Positions 55,806-64,000 of a stretch of 64,000 nucleotides of DNA are shown piece after piece. A program made the position numbers and the translations under genes. Numbering within the stretch: the first letter of the stretch is position 1; each line of letters starts with the position of its first letter. The DNA comes from Flavobacteriaceae bacterium (lineage in GTDB: Bacteria > Bacteroidota > Bacteroidia > Flavobacteriales > Flavobacteriaceae), in the NCBI GenBank assembly GCA_028280265.1, contig JANQMD010000010.1:30458-94457 (forward strand), in the 5' to 3' direction. Under the pieces are notes generated by a model. That model worked only from the letters and a program-made list of their open reading frames with translations. It made no database searches and was not told the DNA's origin.

Positions 55806-56429
55806 TTACTTTTCTCTCGATCTCAAAATATTTACCACATCTTTCAACTTAAATCCTTTGGCTTGCAATAGCATCAAATAATGGAATAACAAATCGGCAC
55901 TTTCATTTAAAAACAGCTCATCGTTGTTATCTTTTGCTTCAATGACTACTTCTACAGCTTCTTCTCCTACTTTCTGCGCCACTTTGTTGATTCCTTTATC
56001 AAAAAGAGAAACCACATAGCTCTTTTTGGCATCCTGACGTAAATCGGGGTCTATTTTTGAAATAGCAACCCGTTCAGCAATGGTGTCTTCTAATTTAGAT
56101 AAAAACCCATACGATTCATCATTTGATCCATTCCAGCATGTATCAGTTCCTGTATGACAAGTAGGTCCTATTGGATTTACAAAAACTAACAAAGTATCAT
56201 TGTCACAATCCAATTTCAAATCGACTAGCTCAAGAAAATTACCACTCTCCTCTCCTTTTGTCCACAATCGATTTTTCGTTCTGCTGAAAAAAGTCACTTT
56301 TTGAGTTTCTTTCGTTTTTTCATAGGCTTCTTGATTCATATAACCTAACATCAATACATTCTTTGTTTCTGCATCTTGAATGATTGCTGGCACTAAACCA
56401 TCACTATTCTTGTTGAAATCTATTTTCAT
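55806..56429 (-). CDS. hisIE: bifunctional phosphoribosyl-AMP cyclohydrolase / phosphoribosyl-ATP pyrophosphatase
   Basis: 207-residue enzyme for steps 2 and 3 of histidine synthesis. HisI part: 1-about 110, with the metal-binding PIGPTCHTGTDTCW near 86-99; HisE part: about 115-207 with the EEAVEVVIEAKDNNDELFLNESADLLFHY motif. I chose ATG 56429 (MKIDFNKNSDG) because the 13 codons upstream are encoded by a dispersed repeat. Last gene of the operon; the repeat at 56436 fills the gap to hisF and lies exactly 6 nt before the start codon. Confidence 0.95.
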   Translation of the reverse strand: MKIDFNKNSDGLVPAIIQDAETKNVLMLGYMNQEAYEKTKETQKVTFFSRTKNRLWTKGEESGNFLELVDLKLDCDNDTLLVFVNPIGPTCHTGTDTCWNGSNDESYGFLSKLEDTIAERVAISKIDPDLRQDAKKSYVVSLFDKGINKVAQKVGEEAVEVVIEAKDNNDELFLNESADLLFHYLMLLQAKGFKLKDVVNILRSREK

Positions 56430-56435
56430 ATTATT

Positions 56436-56509
56436 GTCATTGCGAAGCAAATTCATTTGCTGTGGCAATCTTTAAAAGATTACTTCGTCATTACATTCCT
56501 CGTAAAGAC
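56436..56509. repeat. his-operon repeat element, hisF-hisIE gap
   Basis: Starts GTCATTGCGAAGCAAATTC and ends with decayed CGTAAAGAC; fills the gap from hisF stop to 6 nt before hisIE ATG. Confidence 0.7.
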
Positions 56510-56511
56510 AG

Positions 56512-57267
56512 CTAAAGTCGCACTTCTATATTGTTATTTTTTAATTCTCTTTTTAATTCTGGAATGGGAATTTCTCCAAAGTGAAAAACACTAGCAGCTA
56601 AAGCTGCATCAGATTTTCCTTCTTTAAACGTATCGACAAAATGTTCTACTGATCCTGCACCTCCAGAAGCAATGATTGGAATATTTACGAGATCAGATAA
56701 CTTTGCCAATGCTTCATTGGCAAATCCAGCTTTGGTCCCATCATGATCCATGGAAGTAAATAGAATTTCTCCAGCACCACGTTGTTCCACTTCTTTTGAC
56801 CATTCGAATAAATCTAAATCCGTTGGAATAGTTCCCCCTGCCAAATGAACAAACCAGTTTCCATCTATTTGCTTTGCATCAATAGCCACCACTACACACT
56901 GACTCCCAAATTTCTGCGAGAGTTCATTAATTAATTCAGGTCTTTTTATTGCCGATGAATTGATGGATATTTTATCTGCTCCGCATTTCAATAGTACGTC
57001 TACATCTTCAACAGAAGAAATCCCTCCACCAACGGTAAATGGAATATTCACCTGTTCTGCCACTTTTAAAACCATTTCTCTCATGGTTTTTCGCCCTTCT
57101 AGCGTAGCAGAAATATCTAGGAATACCAGTTCATCTGCTCCTACTTCTGCGTATTGTTTAGCTAATTCTACAGGATCACCCGCATCTCTTAGGTTCACAA
57201 AATTGACGCCTTTTACAGTACGTCCATTTTTAATATCTAAACAAGGTATGATTCTTTTTGTTAACAT
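56512..57267 (-). CDS. hisF: imidazole glycerol phosphate synthase cyclase subunit
   Basis: 251-residue TIM-barrel cyclase that joins with HisH to make IGP and AICAR. Catalytic Asp11 ([10 protein letters not shown]) and Asp130 (VVAIDAKQ), phosphate loops GGGISS (80-85) and SGGAG near 205. Length typical. Start ATG 57267 lies exactly 6 nt from a repeat element in the leader. Confidence 0.97.
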
Positions 57268-57273
57268 GACTTT

Positions 57274-57317
57274 GTCATTCCTGCGAACCAGCCTGCGGCA
57301 GGCGGGGGCAGGAATCT
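57274..57317. repeat. his-operon repeat element, hisA-hisF gap
   Basis: 44 nt, GTCATTCCTGCGAACCAGCC...GGCAGGAATCT. It begins 6 nt before the hisF ATG (minus strand) and contains the last two bases of the hisA TAG stop. Its plus strand is identical at 41 of 44 positions with the minus strand of the hisC-end copy (60310-60353). Confidence 0.8.
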
Positions 57318-58041
57318 ATTTTTTAATTATATATTGCTCCAATTCTTTCAAACTAATTTTATTCTCATAAATAGCTTTCCCAATGATGACTCCTTCGCAG
57401 CCTAACTCAGCGAGTTTTGGCAGTTCTTCAAATGTGGAAATACCACCCGAAGCAATCAATTTAACCTCGTGGGATTTCTTTAAAATTCTTTCATACAAAT
57501 CAAAAGAGGGTCCTTGTAACATCCCATCTTTAGAGATATCTGTACAGATCACGTAATTGATTCCTTTGGATTGATAATCCTGAATAAATGGAATAACTTC
57601 CAAATTGGATTCTTCTTGCCAACCAGAAATAGCAATCTTTTCATTGTGACAATCTGCTCCTAAAATAATCTTCACTGATCCGAATTTTGATATCCAACTT
57701 TCAAATACGGTCGGATTCTTTACCGCAATACTACCTCCAGTAATTTGATTGGCTCCAGATTCAAAAGCAATTTTTAAATCTTCATCTGATTTCAAACCAC
57801 CTCCAAAATCAATCTTTAAACTGGTTTTAGCAGCAATCTGTTCCAATACTTTATAGTTAACGATATGACTCGCTTTTGCTCCATCTAAATCTACCACATG
57901 TAAGTATTGAATTCCTGCACCCTGAAATTCTTTGGCTACTTCAACTGGATTCTCATTGTATATTTTTTTTGTGTCATAATTGCCTTTTGTCAGACGAACA
58001 CATTTTCCTTCTATAATATCTATGGCTGGTATGATTCTCAT
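57316..58041 (-). CDS. hisA: phosphoribosylformimino-5-aminoimidazole carboxamide ribotide isomerase
   Basis: 241-residue TIM-barrel isomerase of step 4. Asp8 ([15 protein letters not shown]) and Asp130 (LGADCHN) are the acid-base pair; GGGLKS at 80-85 is a phosphate loop. The TAG stop (57316-57318) lies within the terminal bases of a repeat, so the repeat may have changed the 3' end slightly. ATG 58041. The 353-nt gap to hisH holds a repeat. Confidence 0.97.
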
Positions 58042-58394
58042 ATTTAATTTAAAAGTATGATGTTAGAAGCTTGGAGTTATGTCTACCACAACATGAAAGC
58101 TCTTTCTTTTGAGTTTGGTTTTATTATTATGTCATTTCGAAATGAGCTTTAAAGCGATTGAGAAATCTATCATTTAGACTCCTCCTCATCCTTCACTCGG
58201 AATGACATTGTGCTATTCAGTTTTTTTATAATCTCTCTTATTTTCCTAATTAGGAAATTTGTTTCCTATAGATGGTGTTGCTCTGATCTTTTATATCTTT
58301 CTTCCTAGGTCAAACTTTCACCATCAACATATCTTTTTACTCTAATCCATTTGTAAGAATTGAGAAATTCGTTTTTTAGCCTTGATTCATTCTT
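58042..58394. other. 353-nt gap between hisH and hisA
   Basis: Contains the GTCATT repeat at 58131 and otherwise AT-rich sequence without genes. Largest gap in the operon, so translation of hisA may depend on its own leader or promoter; none was recognised. Confidence 0.5.
58131..58206. repeat. his-operon repeat element, hisH-hisA gap
   Basis: GTCATTTCGAAATGAGC...CACTCGGAATGAC, with GAGAAATCT and an AT-rich middle. Confidence 0.75.
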
Positions 58395-58976
58395 TTATAG
58401 GTTTAAAAAATTCTGTAAAATTTTCTCCCCAGATTTTCCACTCTTTTCAGGGTGAAACTGTACTCCATAGAAATTATCTTTCTGAAGTGCAGAAGCATAT
58501 TCCAATTCGTAATCCGTTTTTGCTATGGATTCTGAAGAGTTTTTAGCATAATAACTGTGTACCAAATACATGTAATCATTTTCCTTAATCCCATCAAATA
58601 AAGGCGATTTAAGGCTAGAAATCGCATTCCAACCCATCTGCGGAACTTTTACCGTATTGGAAAATCGTTTCACATCTACATCAAAAATCCCCAAACCTTC
58701 AGTATCTCCTTCTTCTGTTGAATTGCACATCAATTGCATTCCTAAACAAATTCCCAAAACAGGCTGATTTAATTGAGGAATTAGTTCATCTAAGCCCGAT
58801 TCTTTCAGTTTTTTCATAGCGGAGCTTGCTTCTCCAACGCCTGGAAAGATAACTTTATCTGCTTTTTTAATTTCTTCTGGATTATCAGATAAAATAGCTT
58901 CAATTCCCAACCGCTTGAATGCAAATTGAATACTCTTTATATTTCCTGCTCCGTAGTCTATAATTACTAGTTTCAT
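58395..58976 (-). CDS. hisH: imidazole glycerol phosphate synthase glutamine amidotransferase subunit
   Basis: 193-residue class I glutamine amidotransferase. Nucleophile Cys77 (VLGICLGMQLM), His and Glu in GVQFHPEKSGKSG near 175. It provides ammonia to HisF. ATG 58976 (MKLVIIDYGAGNIKS). Typical length. Repeat element begins 46 nt before its start. Confidence 0.97.
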   Translation of the reverse strand: MKLVIIDYGAGNIKSIQFAFKRLGIEAILSDNPEEIKKADKVIFPGVGEASSAMKKLKESGLDELIPQLNQPVLGICLGMQLMCNSTEEGDTEGLGIFDVDVKRFSNTVKVPQMGWNAISSLKSPLFDGIKENDYMYLVHSYYAKNSSESIAKTDYELEYASALQKDNFYGVQFHPEKSGKSGEKILQNFLNL

Positions 58977-59022
58977 TTTATTTTGCCACTATCGTGAAAA
59001 TGATTGTTTATTTATTTGGTTT

Positions 59023-59112
59023 GTCATTTCGAATCTTTCGTGATCGCTCAAAACAGGCTAAATGTGAGAAATCTAATAGAGGTTTCTCGTCACTTCGTTC
59101 TGTTGGAATGAC
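59023..59112. repeat. his-operon repeat element, hisB-hisH gap
   Basis: GTCATTTCGAATCTTTCG...TCTGTTGGAATGAC with inner GAGAAATCT / GGTTTCTC arms. Confidence 0.75.
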
Positions 59113-59114
59113 AT

Positions 59115-60254
59115 TTACAATAGGCCTTTAGTACTTGGTAAAATCATCTTTTCTACATCTCTTTTTACAGCCATTTTAATCGCCTTAGCAAAGGCCTTAA
59201 AAATTGCCTCTATTTTGTGGTGCTCATTCGTTCCTTCTGCTTTGATGTTTAAATTGCACCTGGCACCATCAGTAAACGATTTAAAGAAATGAAAGAACAT
59301 TTCTGTAGGCATTTTTCCAACCATTTCACGTTTAAAATTAGCTTCCCAAACCAACCAGTTTCGTCCACCAAAATCAATAGCAGCCTGTGCAAAACAATCA
59401 TCCATTGGCAAGCAAAAACCATAACGCTCTATTCCTAATTTATTTCCAAGAGTTTGAGCAAACACTTCTCCTAAAGCAATGGCTGTATCTTCTATGGTGT
59501 GATGTTCATCAACTTCTAAATCACCATCTACCTTGATATCTAAATCCAACTGTCCATGGCGTGCAATTTGATCTAGCATGTGATCAAAAAAAGCAATCCC
59601 TGTAGCAATATCGCTTTCTCCAGTCCCATCTAAATTTAGATCAATTTTTATTTTGGTTTCATTTGTATTTCTTTCAATACTTCCTGTTCTATCCTGTACT
59701 TTTAAAAATTCATAGATCACTGACCAATCATTACTTTCTAAAGCAATATAGTCCTGTAACTTAGGCCTATCCATTGTCAACTCTTCATCTCCTGCTGTGC
59801 TGTTATCGTTGATGAAAATACCTTGAGCTCCTAAATTTTTTGCTAGCTCAATATCCGTCATACGGTCACCGATCACAAAAGAATTTTCAAGATCATATTC
59901 TTCAGAAAAATAATGTGTTAACAATCCTGTTCTCGGCTTTCTGGTAGGTGCATTGTCCTTAGCAAAAGTTCGATCAATAATTTGTTCCTTAAAGACAATC
60001 CCTTCTTGTTCAAAGGTTTTGACTAAAAAATTATGAACAGGCCAGAAAGTTTCTTCAGGAAAACTATCTGTTCCTAAACCATCTTGATTGGTCACCATTA
60101 CCAACTCGTAATCCAACTCTTTAGCTATCTTCCCCAAATACTGAAATACTTTTGGGTAAAATTCTAACTTTTCAAAACTATCTAATTGATAATCTATCGG
60201 TGGCTCTATGGCCAAGGTACCATCTCTGTCTATAAATAATACTTTCTTACTCAT
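59115..60254 (-). CDS. hisB: bifunctional histidinol-phosphatase / imidazoleglycerol-phosphate dehydratase
   Basis: 379-residue enzyme with an N-terminal HAD phosphatase (Asp9 and Asp11 in [13 protein letters not shown], residues about 1-165) and a C-terminal dehydratase (about 185-379) with metal-binding [13 protein letters not shown] near 250 and [12 protein letters not shown] near 345. This fused form is common in Bacteroidota and Enterobacteria. ATG 60254 lies exactly 6 nt from a repeat element. Confidence 0.97.
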
Positions 60255-60260
60255 AAGTCT

Positions 60261-60353
60261 GTCATTCCTGCTTTCGCAGGAATCTTATTATTTTAGTTTT
60301 TATCTCCTGAGATTCCTACTCCTGCCTGCCGCAGGCTGGTTCGCAGGAATGAC
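60261..60353. repeat. his-operon repeat element overlapping the hisC 3' end
   Basis: GTCATTCCTGCTTTCGCAGG...GTTCGCAGGAATGAC. Right part 60300-60353 codes for the hisC C-terminus; left part fills the hisC-hisB gap. Confidence 0.85.
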
Positions 60354-61403
60354 AAGTGAATTCAATTCTTTTAATACTTTAATTAATTCTTTGTTTTCCT
60401 CTTTTGTCCCTATTGTAAATCGTAAACAATTTTCACACAAAATTTGATTACTCCTATTCCGAACCACAATCCCCTTCTCTATCAATTGATTGTAGCGTAA
60501 GTTCGCATCATCTACTTTCACCAAAAGAAAATTTGCATCAGATTCGAATACTTTTTCCACATATTCAACTTCTAACAAATCATTCGAAAGTTGATTTCTT
60601 TCCAAAAGAATCTCACGAACTTCTTCCTTCGTTTCTTCACTATTACGCAACGCTTCTAATGCCGCTTTTTGTGTTAACTCATTAACATTATAAGGGGGCT
60701 TAATTTTGTTTAAAACGATGATGATTTCTTCGGATGCATAACAAACTCCCAAGCGAATTCCTGCTAAACCATAGGCTTTAGATAGCGTTTGTGTAACAAT
60801 TAGATTTGGAAATTCATTCAATCGGCTTAACCAACTTTCTTGAGTTGAAAAATCTATATAAGCTTCATCTATCACGACAATACCTTCAAATTTTTGAAGT
60901 AATTTCTCTACTTTCTCAGCATCAAAACTATTGGCTGTTGGGTTGTTGGGAGAACATAAGAACAAAATCTTAGTACATTCATTCTGAACATTCAGAATTT
61001 CTTCCACATGAGGCTGAAAATCACTTACCAAAGGAACGTTAATCAATTGTACATCGTTTGTGCTTGATAGAACCTTATACATTCCATAAGTTGGTGGCAG
61101 GGCAATAACAGCATCCGTTTTAGGTTCGCAGAAAACTCTGAAAATCAAATCTAATACTTCATCACTTCCATTTCCTAGCAAAATTTGCTCTTTTTGAACA
61201 CCTTTTAGCTTTGACAATTCTTCTTTGACTAAATTTTGTTGAGGGTCTGGATAGCGATTCAGCCCCGTATCAAATGGGTTTTCGTTAGCATCAATAAAAA
61301 TCATATCAGAGCTTGCCTCTTTAAATTCGTCTCTTGCAGAAGAATAAGGTTCTAAAAACTTAATGTTCTCTCTGATTATATTTTGTAAGTTAAATTTTCC
61401 CAT
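60300..61403 (-). CDS. hisC: histidinol-phosphate aminotransferase with repeat-encoded C-terminus
   Basis: 367-residue PLP aminotransferase of step 7. ATG 61403 (MGKFNLQNIIRENIKFLEPY) is preferred to the GTG at 61418, which lies in a repeat. PLP Lys is in TQTLSKAYGLAGIRLG; FIDANENPFDTGLNRYPDP near 42-60 and the FTIGTKEENKEL region near 332 are typical. The last 17 codons ([17 protein letters not shown]) are encoded by a dispersed repeat that reads GTCATTCCTGCGAACCAGCC at its start, so the normal end was probably near LKELNS. Confidence 0.95.
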   Translation of the reverse strand: MGKFNLQNIIRENIKFLEPYSSARDEFKEASSDMIFIDANENPFDTGLNRYPDPQQNLVKEELSKLKGVQKEQILLGNGSDEVLDLIFRVFCEPKTDAVIALPPTYGMYKVLSSTNDVQLINVPLVSDFQPHVEEILNVQNECTKILFLCSPNNPTANSFDAEKVEKLLQKFEGIVVIDEAYIDFSTQESWLSRLNEFPNLIVTQTLSKAYGLAGIRLGVCYASEEIIIVLNKIKPPYNVNELTQKAALEALRNSEETKEEVREILLERNQLSNDLLEVEYVEKVFESDANFLLVKVDDANLRYNQLIEKGIVVRNRSNQILCENCLRFTIGTKEENKELIKVLKELNSLVIPANQPAAGRSRNLRR

Positions 61404-61413
61404 ACTATATTTT

Positions 61414-61445
61414 GTCACATCGAGTGAATTTGATCTATTAAATTC
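61414..61445. repeat. his-operon repeat element, hisD-hisC gap (GTCACATCGAG type)
   Basis: GTCACATCGAGTGAATTTG..., matching CACATAGAGTGAATTTG at 62849 over about 30 nt. Ends 10 nt before the hisC ATG on the minus strand. Confidence 0.65.
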
Positions 61446-61550
61446 GTACCCGCCTTGTTACCTTCCTGACGGCTAGGCAGGGCAGACTGGTTGAGATATA
61501 ATTTGATTTCAATACAATTTTATTGACTTCCACAACTTCAGTCTGGCATG

Positions 61551-62834
61551 TTACTTCAATTCATTTAATCGTAAGGTCACTGCATTCTTATGCGCTTGTA
61601 AACCTTCAGCTTCAGCCATTAATTCTATGGATGGCCCTATCCTTTTCATCCCTTGTTTTGATATTTTTTGAAAAGTAATGCTCTTCATAAAGCTATCTAG
61701 ATTGACGCCTGAATATGCTTTTGTAAATCCATTCGTCGGTAGAGTATGATTTGTACCTGAGGCGTAATCTCCTGCACTTTCAGGCGTGTAATTACCAATA
61801 AATACGGAACCAGCATTTACAATTCTGTCTACAAAATAATTTTCATCTTTTGTACATACAATAAAATGCTCTGGGCCGTACTCATTAATAATACGTAATG
61901 CCTCTATATTACTCTTAACAAGAATGGATTTAGAGTTTTCGATCGCTTTTGAAGCTATTTCTTTTCTAGGTAATTTTTCTAATTGTTGATCAATTTCTAT
62001 GGAAACTTTTTCAATCAAATCATTGGATGTAGAAACTAAAATCACCTGACTATCAGTTCCGTGCTCTGCTTGACTCAATAAATCTGACGCAACAAATGCT
62101 GGGTTTGCAGTATCATCTGCAAGCACTAACAATTCACTAGGGCCTGCTGGCATGTCAATAGCAACACCGTATTTTGTTGCTAACTGCTTTGCTACCGTTA
62201 CAAATTGATTTCCAGGCCCAAATATTTTATAAACTTGTGGGATGCTCTCAGTTCCGAAGGTTAATCCAGCGATGGCTTGAATCCCTCCAACTTTAAATAT
62301 TTTTGTGACACCGCACAATTCAGCTGCATATAAAATCTCATTGGCAATTTTCCCTTCTGAGTTTGGTGGTGTACACAATACGATCTCTTTGCATCCCGCA
62401 ATTTTTGCAGGTATGGCAAGCATTAGTACTGTAGAGAACAATGGTGCTGTCCCTCCAGGAATGTACAAACCTACCTTTTGAATGGGTCGTTTTTCTTGCC
62501 AACACTCTACTCCTGCCATGGTCTCTTCAAATACCATATCTGTTTTTTGTGCTGAATGGAATTTTTCAATATTTCTTTTTGCAATTCGTAGGGCAGATTT
62601 CAACTCATCTGGGATGTTTTCCCAAGCTGATTTTAATTCCTTCCTTGAAACTTGATAAGAGTCTTGCTGAACCTTATCAAATTTAGACGTATACCTTACA
62701 ATAGCTGTATCTCCTTCTGTTTGAATATCTTCGAAAATCTGATTTACAATTGTTTCAATATCAGCAACTGTTTGAGTAGGTCTTTGTAAAATTGTTGACC
62801 AATCGCTTTCTTTTGGATACTTTATTTTTTGCAT
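61551..62834 (-). CDS. hisD: histidinol dehydrogenase
   Basis: 427-residue zinc enzyme that oxidises histidinol twice to histidine with NAD. Visible: VGLYIPGGTAPLFSTVLML near 117-135, GPGNQFVTVAKQ near 206-217, the LLSQAEHGTDSQ zinc/catalytic segment near 255 and NHTLPTNGFTKAYSG near 365. Length standard. ATG 62834 follows a repeat (62849) by about 14 nt. Confidence 0.97.
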   Translation of the reverse strand: MQKIKYPKESDWSTILQRPTQTVADIETIVNQIFEDIQTEGDTAIVRYTSKFDKVQQDSYQVSRKELKSAWENIPDELKSALRIAKRNIEKFHSAQKTDMVFEETMAGVECWQEKRPIQKVGLYIPGGTAPLFSTVLMLAIPAKIAGCKEIVLCTPPNSEGKIANEILYAAELCGVTKIFKVGGIQAIAGLTFGTESIPQVYKIFGPGNQFVTVAKQLATKYGVAIDMPAGPSELLVLADDTANPAFVASDLLSQAEHGTDSQVILVSTSNDLIEKVSIEIDQQLEKLPRKEIASKAIENSKSILVKSNIEALRIINEYGPEHFIVCTKDENYFVDRIVNAGSVFIGNYTPESAGDYASGTNHTLPTNGFTKAYSGVNLDSFMKSITFQKISKQGMKRIGPSIELMAEAEGLQAHKNAVTLRLNELK

Positions 62835-62848
62835 AATTCTTATTCTAT

Positions 62849-62880
62849 CACATAGAGTGAATTTGATTTATTAAATTAAC
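62849..62880. repeat. his-operon repeat element, hisG-hisD gap
   Basis: CACATAGAGTGAATTTGATT... a near copy of 61416-61445. No intact right arm. Confidence 0.6.
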
Positions 62881-62962
62881 TTTCGATACGATCGATCACG
62901 CTAAAGCATCATCATTCGAACCGACATTCTGTTTTGTTTTGAACTCAAAATGCACAACGGGT

Positions 62963-63820
62963 TCACATTACCATTTTTTCTATTGGACATACTAAAATTC
63001 CTTCGGCTCCTTTTTCTTTTAACTCGTCTATAATTTCCCAGAACTGATTTTTACTAATCACAGAATGTACAGAGCTCCATCCTTCCTCGGCCAGTGGCAA
63101 TACCGTTGGGCTCCTCATTCCTGGTAAAACACTAATAATTTCCTCTAACTTATCATTAGGAGCGTTTAACAACACATATTTGGAATCACGTCCTTTTAAA
63201 ACCGATTTAATACGAAATTGCAGTTTGTTGAGTATCGTTTGAGCCTCTGAAGAAATGCTAGGTGAAACTGCTAAAACTGCTTCAGACTTCATGAGCACTT
63301 CTACTTCTTTCAGGTTGTTTTTGAACAAGGTGCTTCCGGAAGATACAATATCACAAATCCCATCTGCCAAACCTATATTTGGTGCTATCTCAACAGAACC
63401 ATTAATGATGTGAATGTCTGGTAAAATTCCTTTTTCGTTTAAGAACTTTTTTACAGTATTGGGGTATGAGGTTGCTATTCTCTTCTCTCTAAAATAATCC
63501 ATTCCATTGTAGTCTTGATTTTTTGGAACGGCCAAAGAGACTTTGCACTTTGAGAAACCTAAACGTTCTACAAAGTTGATGTCTTCTCCTTTCTCTACCA
63601 ATACGTTTTCCCCAATAATTGCAATGTCTACCACCCCATCTCTTAAGTATTGTGGGATGTCGCCATTACGCAGATAAAATACTTCTAAAGGAAAATTTCT
63701 GGCGGAAGCCTTCAATTGATCTTTTCCATTATCGATGGAAATGCCACAGTCTTTAATCATTTTTAGAGAATCTTCATTGAGTCTTCCTGATTTCTGAATG
63801 GCTATTCTGAGTTTTGTCAT
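62963..63820 (-). CDS. hisG: ATP phosphoribosyltransferase, long form
   Basis: 285-residue first enzyme of the pathway (HisG_L). ATG 63820 (MTKLRIAIQKSGRLNEDS) preferred; an ORF extension to 63850 is repeat-derived. Contains the substrate segment SGRLNEDSL near 11, AIIGENVL near 70, and GICDIVSSGSTL phosphate-binding loop near 155. Residues about 215-285 form the C-terminal ACT-like domain for feedback by histidine. First gene of the his operon. Confidence 0.97.
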   Translation of the reverse strand: MTKLRIAIQKSGRLNEDSLKMIKDCGISIDNGKDQLKASARNFPLEVFYLRNGDIPQYLRDGVVDIAIIGENVLVEKGEDINFVERLGFSKCKVSLAVPKNQDYNGMDYFREKRIATSYPNTVKKFLNEKGILPDIHIINGSVEIAPNIGLADGICDIVSSGSTLFKNNLKEVEVLMKSEAVLAVSPSISSEAQTILNKLQFRIKSVLKGRDSKYVLLNAPNDKLEEIISVLPGMRSPTVLPLAEEGWSSVHSVISKNQFWEIIDELKEKGAEGILVCPIEKMVM

Positions 63821-63831
63821 GTTTTTATTTT

Positions 63832-63866
63832 GAGAACCAGTCTGCAACATGCAGGAACAGGTATCT
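63832..63866. repeat. decayed repeat in the hisG leader
   Basis: GAGAACCAGTCTGC...GGTATCT matches the 57274-57317 element at 26 of 35 positions. Confidence 0.55.
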
Positions 63867-63901
63867 TTTGTTTTTTGTTGAGACCATCAATTGAATTTTA
63901 A

Positions 63902-63987: not shown

Positions 63988-64000
63988 TTTTGTTTTCCAT

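Follow-up and report, generated by a model that had tools for sequence, protein, structure and literature searches.

Every gene junction of the his operon of a Flavobacteriaceae bacterium, and the leader upstream of hisG, carries an intact or decayed palindromic element, and these elements are likely to be mobile DNA that his operons tolerate rather than built-in regulators. We consider it probable that a non-autonomous palindromic element has inserted repeatedly at sites that tolerate it, those of the his and trp operons included; tolerance alone does not account for the ilv operon being almost element-free. The window, meaning the whole 64,000-nucleotide stretch analyzed (contig JANQMD010000010.1, positions 30,458 to 94,457 of the forward strand), had received a first-pass annotation whose observation we confirmed and whose interpretation is partly supported.

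Elements of several stem types occupy the his junctions

The operon, hisG-D-C-B-H-A-F-IE (gene identity and order as stated in the first-pass annotation), lies on the minus strand at 55806..63817; no strand is assigned to its elements. A single dispersed repeat family with GTCATT...AATGAC ends had been described, as such elements or decayed copies, at all junctions and in the hisG leader. Occupancy held throughout, with at least one intact hairpin at five of the seven junctions and decayed elements at the other two and in the leader. The exact ends, however, are present at three of seven junctions (hisH-hisA, hisB-hisH, and hisC-hisB) and not at the other four, and rather than one repeat the elements are, on sequence grounds, one superfamily with tag GTC, tail CT, and several stem types (ATTCCTGC, ATTTC, ATTGC/ATTAC, and ACATC). 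Their stems and loops are too variable for a good alignment.

Six matches to the intact hairpin pattern GTCATT...AATCT fall at five places. The hisF-hisIE junction (56436..56509) holds a head-to-head dimer with an intact first half (GTCATTGCG...GCAATCT) and a decayed second half ending in AAAGAC. Between hisA and hisF (57274..57317) lies a single element that has a long inner hairpin in addition to its 8-bp stem (ATTCCTGC/GCAGGAAT) and overlaps the hisA stop codon. Dimers of the form GTCATTTCG...AATGAC with decayed right halves are found at hisH-hisA (58131..58206), where the 353-nt gap contains other sequence besides the dimer, and at hisB-hisH (59023..59112). The hisC-hisB dimer (60261..60353) has ATTCCTGC stems, and its right half lies within the 3' end of hisC and codes for most of the HisC tail. 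The elements at hisD-hisC (61414..61520; GTCACATCGAG type, with an uncertain right end set by eye) and hisG-hisD (62847..62925; TCACATAGAG...CGAACCGAC) are of a diverged, decayed form (GTCACATCGAGTGAATTTGAT...). The leader upstream of hisG (63833..63867) contains a decayed copy identical to the hisA-hisF element at 25 of 35 positions, a score reached by none of 1,000 random 80-nt placements in stretches of the same genome (maximum, 20).

Elements are concentrated in his and trp operons

Because a bare count of GTCATT mixes elements with chance matches, hairpin patterns were used. Other gaps of the window are mostly empty (the first-pass annotation had noted that most other operons there have no such elements): strict hairpins occur in 2 of 25 codirectional gaps and 3 of 48 gaps in total, against 4 of 7 his junctions with the same gene caller (5 of 7 when gene ends were set by homology). 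That caller, used for these counts and for the Markov test below, was a simple open reading frame rule (ATG starts, at least 70 to 90 amino acids); homology-based gene ends served for the four operons in the junction survey, which left out junctions marked na, str, or far, and in the size-matched comparison.

Genome-wide there are 189 intact matches, six of them in the 8 kb that his occupies, where 0.46 would be expected (Poisson P = 9e-6), and the trp operon forms a second dense cluster with eight; the own-genome P values for his and trp are post hoc, his having been picked by the first-pass annotation and trp by inspection of dense places. Across 41 genomes, his gaps longer than 15 bp contain 66 strict hairpins, whereas Markov resampling of the gaps yields 0.75 on average. 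Among size-matched junctions of the genus, the motif is present in 64 of 169 for his and 40 of 95 for trp, as opposed to 7 of 299 neighboring codirectional (flank) gaps, 1 of 73 for ilv, and 0 of 110 for dcw, some of whose gaps contain coding sequence owing to start choice. The leu operon, with three junctions in one locus, was dropped as a further control. When distinct his clusters only are counted, 34 of 287 junctions compare with 5 of 430 flank gaps (P = 5e-10), the flank denominator coming from the simple caller; shared ancestry of the genomes inflates such P values, an issue that counting distinct clusters does not remove. Size-matched gaps elsewhere thus carried, in this sample, far fewer elements than the his gaps, which together with the occupied junctions of relatives supports the suggestion of preferential or recurrent insertion. 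At gathering scores, Rfam returned no family at his or trp junctions in the five sources searched. The family also failed to emerge from a de novo 9-mer enrichment over 464 kb of the same genome.

Relatives have different elements at the same junctions, and HisA contains an apparently recurrent insertion site

In the orthologous his operons sampled, the same junctions are occupied, mostly by different elements: elements at one junction vary from species to species, 77 carriers resolving into 56 sequence clusters, and unrelated hairpin-forming sequences occupy the same junction in different species. The median element lies 12 nt past the stop codon and 16 nt ahead of the next start. Occupancy of his correlates with genome-wide element load (Spearman rho = 0.65, P = 4e-6, n = 41). 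Genomes G010 and G014 have a compact his operon and no excess of element over control matches (33 versus 39 and 22 versus 24, respectively).

Insertion also occurs within a gene. HisA has an in-frame insertion at a single position in 31 of 118 Flavobacteriaceae, and on a 111-row tree this character requires at least 21 changes, 17 of them forced by starred branches. Palindromic elements are read in frame in HisA at, for example, L049, L051, L054, L016, L160, L182, and L209, the first three being complete dimers. In the genus, six of nine inserts match the element motif; among 20 inserts from named genomes judged by eye, about nine were clear elements, five partial, and six not elements. Many HisA inserts, though not all, are recognizable from their sequence as elements. 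Relatives with the HisA site filled and relatives with it empty are both present, with flanks too diverged to define insert boundaries, and neither a target sequence nor a duplicated site was found. The HisA insertion at one position across Flavobacteriaceae is new here; a literature search, with most subscription papers outside its reach, returned no recognized report of it or of a palindrome-loaded his operon.

A model of tolerated insertion and its alternatives

We propose that TGTC-tagged hairpin elements of the REP type are likely non-autonomous mobile DNA in their mode of spread and probably inserted repeatedly into his and trp operons, where they are apparently tolerated. An enzyme acting in trans would move them, perhaps in the form of single-stranded hairpins; a search of the genome for Y1 transposases identified no mobilizing enzyme, which counts against the model. 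Gene-disrupting insertions would be lost, and copies would survive between cotranscribed genes and in one loop of HisA, as reading frames and the stretch ahead of the start stay intact there.

The first-pass annotation had also offered selection for hairpins that partition the polycistronic mRNA. In a broader form, which we regard as unlikely, a hairpin of any sequence is kept at each junction to split or stabilize the transcript, and repeats are recruited since they fold. The filling of one junction by unrelated hairpin formers in different species fits this account, as does the folding of junctions without this family, which exceeds that of shuffled sequences in his (mean z = -2.7, n = 115), trp (-3.0, n = 44), and ilv (-2.5, n = 69), compared with -0.3 in dcw (n = 31) and -0.7 in divergent gaps of the same genome (n = 25). 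However, codirectional and convergent gaps of that genome fold too (z = -1.7 and -2.9), which means that hairpins are no peculiarity of these operons, and the values for window his junctions are mostly modest (-1.3, -2.0, -8.3, -1.3, -3.0, and -1.3; the test was limited to gaps of 35 to 260 nt, which covers six of the seven junctions and dropped three dcw gaps). Given that folding is as good on the antisense as on the sense strand (P = 0.17 to 0.97 in five tests) and that compact element-free operons exist, partition of the mRNA is not supported; occupancy that tracks element load and in-frame hisA copies without such a role also speak against it.

It seems improbable that some his or trp feature, such as single strands exposed at attenuated or stalled transcripts, directs the elements: they are also present at serC-serA, bioD-bioF, dihydroorotate dehydrogenase-pheT, a DNA-polymerase/S24-peptidase pair, and further gaps, and no target sequence or duplicated site was found. 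Such targeting would nevertheless fit the loading of his and trp but not of dcw or of ilv, the ilv junctions being equally open (73 of 94 measure at least 40 bp), and a His-rich leader peptide precedes the his operon in 38 of 41 genomes; neighborhood does not explain the difference from dcw, because trp and dcw lie 35 to 66 kb apart in the seven genomes compared for both operons. Multiplication of one element inside the operon through local duplication or gene conversion, the expansion raised by the first-pass annotation, we hold to be very improbable. Two pairs resemble each other as it would predict, the hisA-hisF element being 93% complementary over 46 nt to one half of the hisC-hisB dimer and the hisG-hisD and hisD-hisC elements sharing 37 nt at 89% identity, but the remaining junctions have other stem types, trp is loaded too, the same gaps of relatives hold different sets, and the long-loop form of the hisA-hisF element recurs elsewhere in the genome (C5:117045 and C30:41089, among the matches listed). 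More tentatively, and with considerable doubt, Flavobacteriaceae his and trp operons might be landing zones whose boundaries and HisA slot are refilled by unrelated kinds of hairpin, via targeting or any-sequence hairpin selection; if so, palindromic DNA would continually rewrite operon architecture.

Significance and comparison with known systems

It has long been debated whether REP elements are selfish DNA or act as intercistronic regulators. A conserved eight-gene operon in element-free, sparse, and loaded versions within one genus offers a natural experiment, and with one HisA position apparently hit many times, both views become testable in cultivable bacteria. For annotators, HisA length variation in Flavobacteriaceae sits at one insertion site.

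BIMEs, grouped with GTAG REPs, are intercistronic hairpins in dimer arrangement. The his elements share this with BIMEs and with GTAG REPs, which have RAYT transposases (PMC3733652 for GTAG REPs), and differ in their tag, GTC instead of GTAG, and in that no linked RAYT gene was found.

According to the available part of Di Nocera et al. (2013; PMC3733652), CGTC-tagged REPs have the tag CGTC or its variants TGTC and CCTC, a stem of 8 to 9 bp beginning with AT, a loop of 4 to 5 nt, and mostly a CCA tail; head-to-head dimers predominate, most copies are intergenic, some being read in frame within genes, a dedicated transposase is not known for them, and Bacteroidetes are among the phyla named. 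At the five junctions with intact hairpins the GTCATT ends are all TGTC, a listed variant, and four of the five hold head-to-head dimers. One hisC-hisB unit fits stem and loop exactly (ATTCCTGC-TTTC-GCAGGAAT), whereas the hisA-hisF element combines its 8-bp stem with a long loop and others have outer stems of about 5 bp and long loops. As with CGTC-tagged REPs, no transposase flanked by elements was found: a search of the Y1 family returned one Y1_Tnp gene in the genome, with no GTCATT in its 3.2-kb locus (L138). Because the tail in the six intact matches is CT, not CCA, we term the elements CGTC-REP-like rather than members.

Same-site insertion appears once in the available part of that paper (Xanthomonas recB), whereas the HisA position appears to have taken insertions on many branches; loading of every junction of one operon is not mentioned there. 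The same source equates the Rickettsia palindromic elements RPE-4 and RPE-6 with CGTC-4 and CGTC-1; by its description these are read in frame inside proteins, as HisA inserts are, and the difference is that the inserts here share a single position in one enzyme and span a bacterial family. RepRanger tabulates REP-rich Flavobacterium genomes, and the text available names no HisA insertion and lacks the terms "histidine" and "his operon" (PMC12306157). What these sequences appear to add to the known CGTC-tagged REPs is the loading of his and trp operons and the recurrent HisA site.

Repeat elements throughout the his operon

The his operon of the window is encoded on the minus strand and arranged G-D-C-B-H-A-F-IE. 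Reading each gap and scanning it with the pattern GTCATT-NY...RN-AATCT gave six intact matches spread over five junctions: F-IE (56436-56509), A-F (57274-57317), H-A (58131-58206), B-H (59023-59112), and C-B (60261-60353). The gaps D-C and G-D each contain a diverged form of the GTCACATCGAG type (37 nt at 89% identity between the two), and the leader before hisG holds a decayed copy matching the A-F element at 25/35 positions (equally good random placements, 0/1000). With five junctions intact and these three sites decayed, all eight are occupied, as the first-pass annotation had claimed. It had also seen a single repeat family; the elements do share a GTC tag and a CT tail, but their stems differ, and judged by sequence the his elements are one superfamily with several stem types. 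The C-B dimer, a head-to-head pair, extends into hisC, and the resulting HisC C-terminal tail was found in 0/40 other rows compared; C-terminal extensions occur in 4/40 HisC proteins, with the motif visible in one of these four.

Upstream of hisG, 38/41 loci (L001-L020, L041-L060, and the window, ending at 64000) have a short leader open reading frame (ORF) with a His run, of the type MxFIQNHHHHFYNCSQAI, mostly followed by a terminator-like hairpin. Together these are likely a his attenuator, although an Rfam search of three of the loci named none. Contig C55 stops at the end of the window, truncating the leader of the window itself.

Element load across the genome and in other operons

In the window's genome the pattern matches 189 times, versus 26 for the reversed control. 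The 8-kb his region has 6 matches against 0.46 expected (Poisson P = 9e-6; ~0.004 allowing for ~400 such windows). A second cluster, picked post hoc, has 8 matches in 7.5 kb of contig C22; it corresponds to the trp operon (trpE-G-D-C-F-(unknown)-B-A). The ORF between its trpF and trpB (157 aa, L061:6170-6643) had no NCBIfam match at E 1e-10. Elsewhere in this genome, elements occurred in 8/210 gaps of >15 bp in a 400-kb sample. Further element-bearing gaps are serC-serA, bioD-bioF, a dihydrolipoyl-acyltransferase/ilvE pair, dihydroorotate dehydrogenase-pheT, a DNA-polymerase/S24-peptidase pair, URO-D/aminotransferase, and PhoX/PriA; the theme is therefore not purely amino acid synthesis. On four contigs of this genome (C14, C36, C53, and C57) elements lie 13 to 38 bases from the first base and may have broken the assembly. 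Four near-identical GTCATTCTGAGGAGTTTTACCCTGAGCGG... copies lie inside 1.5 kb of one locus (L039:16391-17883).

The comparison across relatives took in 41 genomes for his, 21 for trp, and 20 each for ilv and the cell-wall/division cluster dcw. Under a strict rule (GTC-ANNNC, loop, perfect 5-bp complement), the his gaps of the 41 genus genomes held 66 hairpins versus 0.75 on average after Markov resampling of the gaps, and hairpin-bearing junctions numbered 45/287 in his, 24/109 in trp, 0/94 in ilv, and 0/237 in dcw. With a looser motif and gaps of at least 40 bp, the counts were 64/169, 40/95, 1/73, and 0/110, respectively. Gaps of similar size elsewhere are not as loaded as those of his: codirectional gaps of 40 to 2000 bp flanking these operons gave 7/299 (his plus trp versus flanks, P = 2e-31, without correction for shared ancestry). 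In seven genomes examined for both clusters (G001, G010, G013, G021, G028, G037, and G039), trpB and murD are 35 to 66 kb apart, so chromosome neighborhood does not explain the trp/dcw contrast. A further set of 80 Flavobacteriaceae loci, taken from titled records, had 526 measurable his junctions, of which 365 were at least 40 bp and 40 carried a strict hairpin.

Other hairpin-like sequences also fill junctions (hisA-hisF in L007, L014, and L046; ilv in L121, L131, and L135; trp in L083). They include CAAAAGC-rich inverted repeats, CCTGTCAGGTTT-type palindromes, CTTCCC...GGGAAG, and, in ilv, purine-rich/pyrimidine-rich arms; the length of ilv junctions stems from such sequences, not from TGTC elements. 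Long junctions in L005, L015, and L019 (hisH-hisA) and L007 (hisF-hisIE) apparently contain a whole small gene, presumably, by eye, for RidA-, GNAT-, or GIY-YIG-like proteins.

Probable independent arrivals and a recurrent site in HisA

Orthologous his operons have the same junctions occupied, but the elements mostly differ: the 77 his and trp junctions that carry an element fall into 56 clusters when grouped at 70% identity. Between hisA and hisF, relatives have TGTC elements of several stem types, quite different hairpin-like sequences, or nothing. Occupancy of his rises with a genome's element density (Spearman 0.65, n = 41, P = 4e-6). In G014 and G010 (loci L001 and L002), the two genomes in which all his genes abut or overlap, with gaps of at most 1 nt, element matches show no excess over control (22 versus 24 and 33 versus 39). 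Exceptions are L020 and L046, with hairpins in genomes lacking an excess, and L056, with none despite a high load.

In a tree of HisG-D-B-F, the window's proteins group with two small-genome relatives (L001 and L002) and a Flavobacteriaceae record (L141), outside the clade holding most of the window's genus; L052, L056, L057, and L060 form another distant group. These groupings may reflect exchange of his operons between lineages.

Elements also occur inside HisA. In 9/41 genus loci, HisA is 6 to 28 residues longer, and the additional residues fall at a single point, following the helix that ends YxxIL and preceding the strand KLIASGG; the motif is visible in six of the nine (39 proteins aligned), with in-frame dimers in L049, L051, and L054 and a single element in L016. 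Among titled Flavobacteriaceae, 20/73 readable HisA proteins have 4 or more additional residues at this point, those of Winogradskyella, Kordia, Lacinutrix, Dokdonia, Aequorivita, and Flavobacterium among them; by eye, about nine inserts are clear elements, five partial, and six unrecognizable. The overall frequency is 31/118. On the same HisG-D-B-F tree (FastTree, 111 rows, 30 with the insertion), no fewer than 21 changes are required, and starred branches force 17 of these; gains and losses are inseparable case by case. A scan of 34 proteins of the four operons found no other internal site with more than two carriers. In an AlphaFold model of Dokdonia HisA (mean pLDDT, 89.5), the insert sits between a helix and the next strand (pLDDT ~80 there). 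In TIM barrels, the helix-to-strand side faces away from the active site.

Insertion or selection on RNA folding

The elements could be kept because RNA folding of the junctions matters. Measured as z against dinucleotide shuffles, gaps without a strict TGTC hairpin still fold better than the shuffles (mean z of -2.7 in his [n = 115], -3.0 in trp [44], and -2.5 in ilv [69]), which keeps this hypothesis alive; dcw gaps averaged -0.3 (31), and the window genome's divergent, codirectional, and convergent gaps -0.7 (25), -1.7 (95), and -2.9 (23). Sense and antisense strands, however, fold alike (P = 0.17 to 0.97 in five tests), as DNA-level palindromes do, and not as would be expected had selection acted on RNA pairing by way of G-U pairs. 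Six of the window's own junctions, those other than the 353-nt gap, give mostly modest scores (-1.3, -2.0, -8.3, -1.3, -3.0, and -1.3).

The best-supported reading is recurrent insertion where little harm results: a nonautonomous palindromic element would insert repeatedly and persist at such places. Across the 77 elements, the median start is 12 nt after the stop codon and the median end 16 nt before the next start. Preferential insertion, one of three options raised in the first-pass annotation, is supported in this form, but tolerance by itself is an incomplete explanation, since ilv junctions are equally long yet almost element-free.

Comparison with known repeats

Literature searches found no report of the his and trp concentration, the near absence from ilv, or the repeated HisA site. 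The nearest published account (Di Nocera et al., PMC3733652) describes CGTC REPs as mostly head-to-head dimers, with the tag altered to TGTC in many cases, located inside genes in some species, with one same-site case in Xanthomonas recB. It also indicates that CGTC REPs seem to be without a dedicated transposase, and the window's genome agrees: its one Y1 transposase gene lies in a 3.2-kb locus free of GTCATT.
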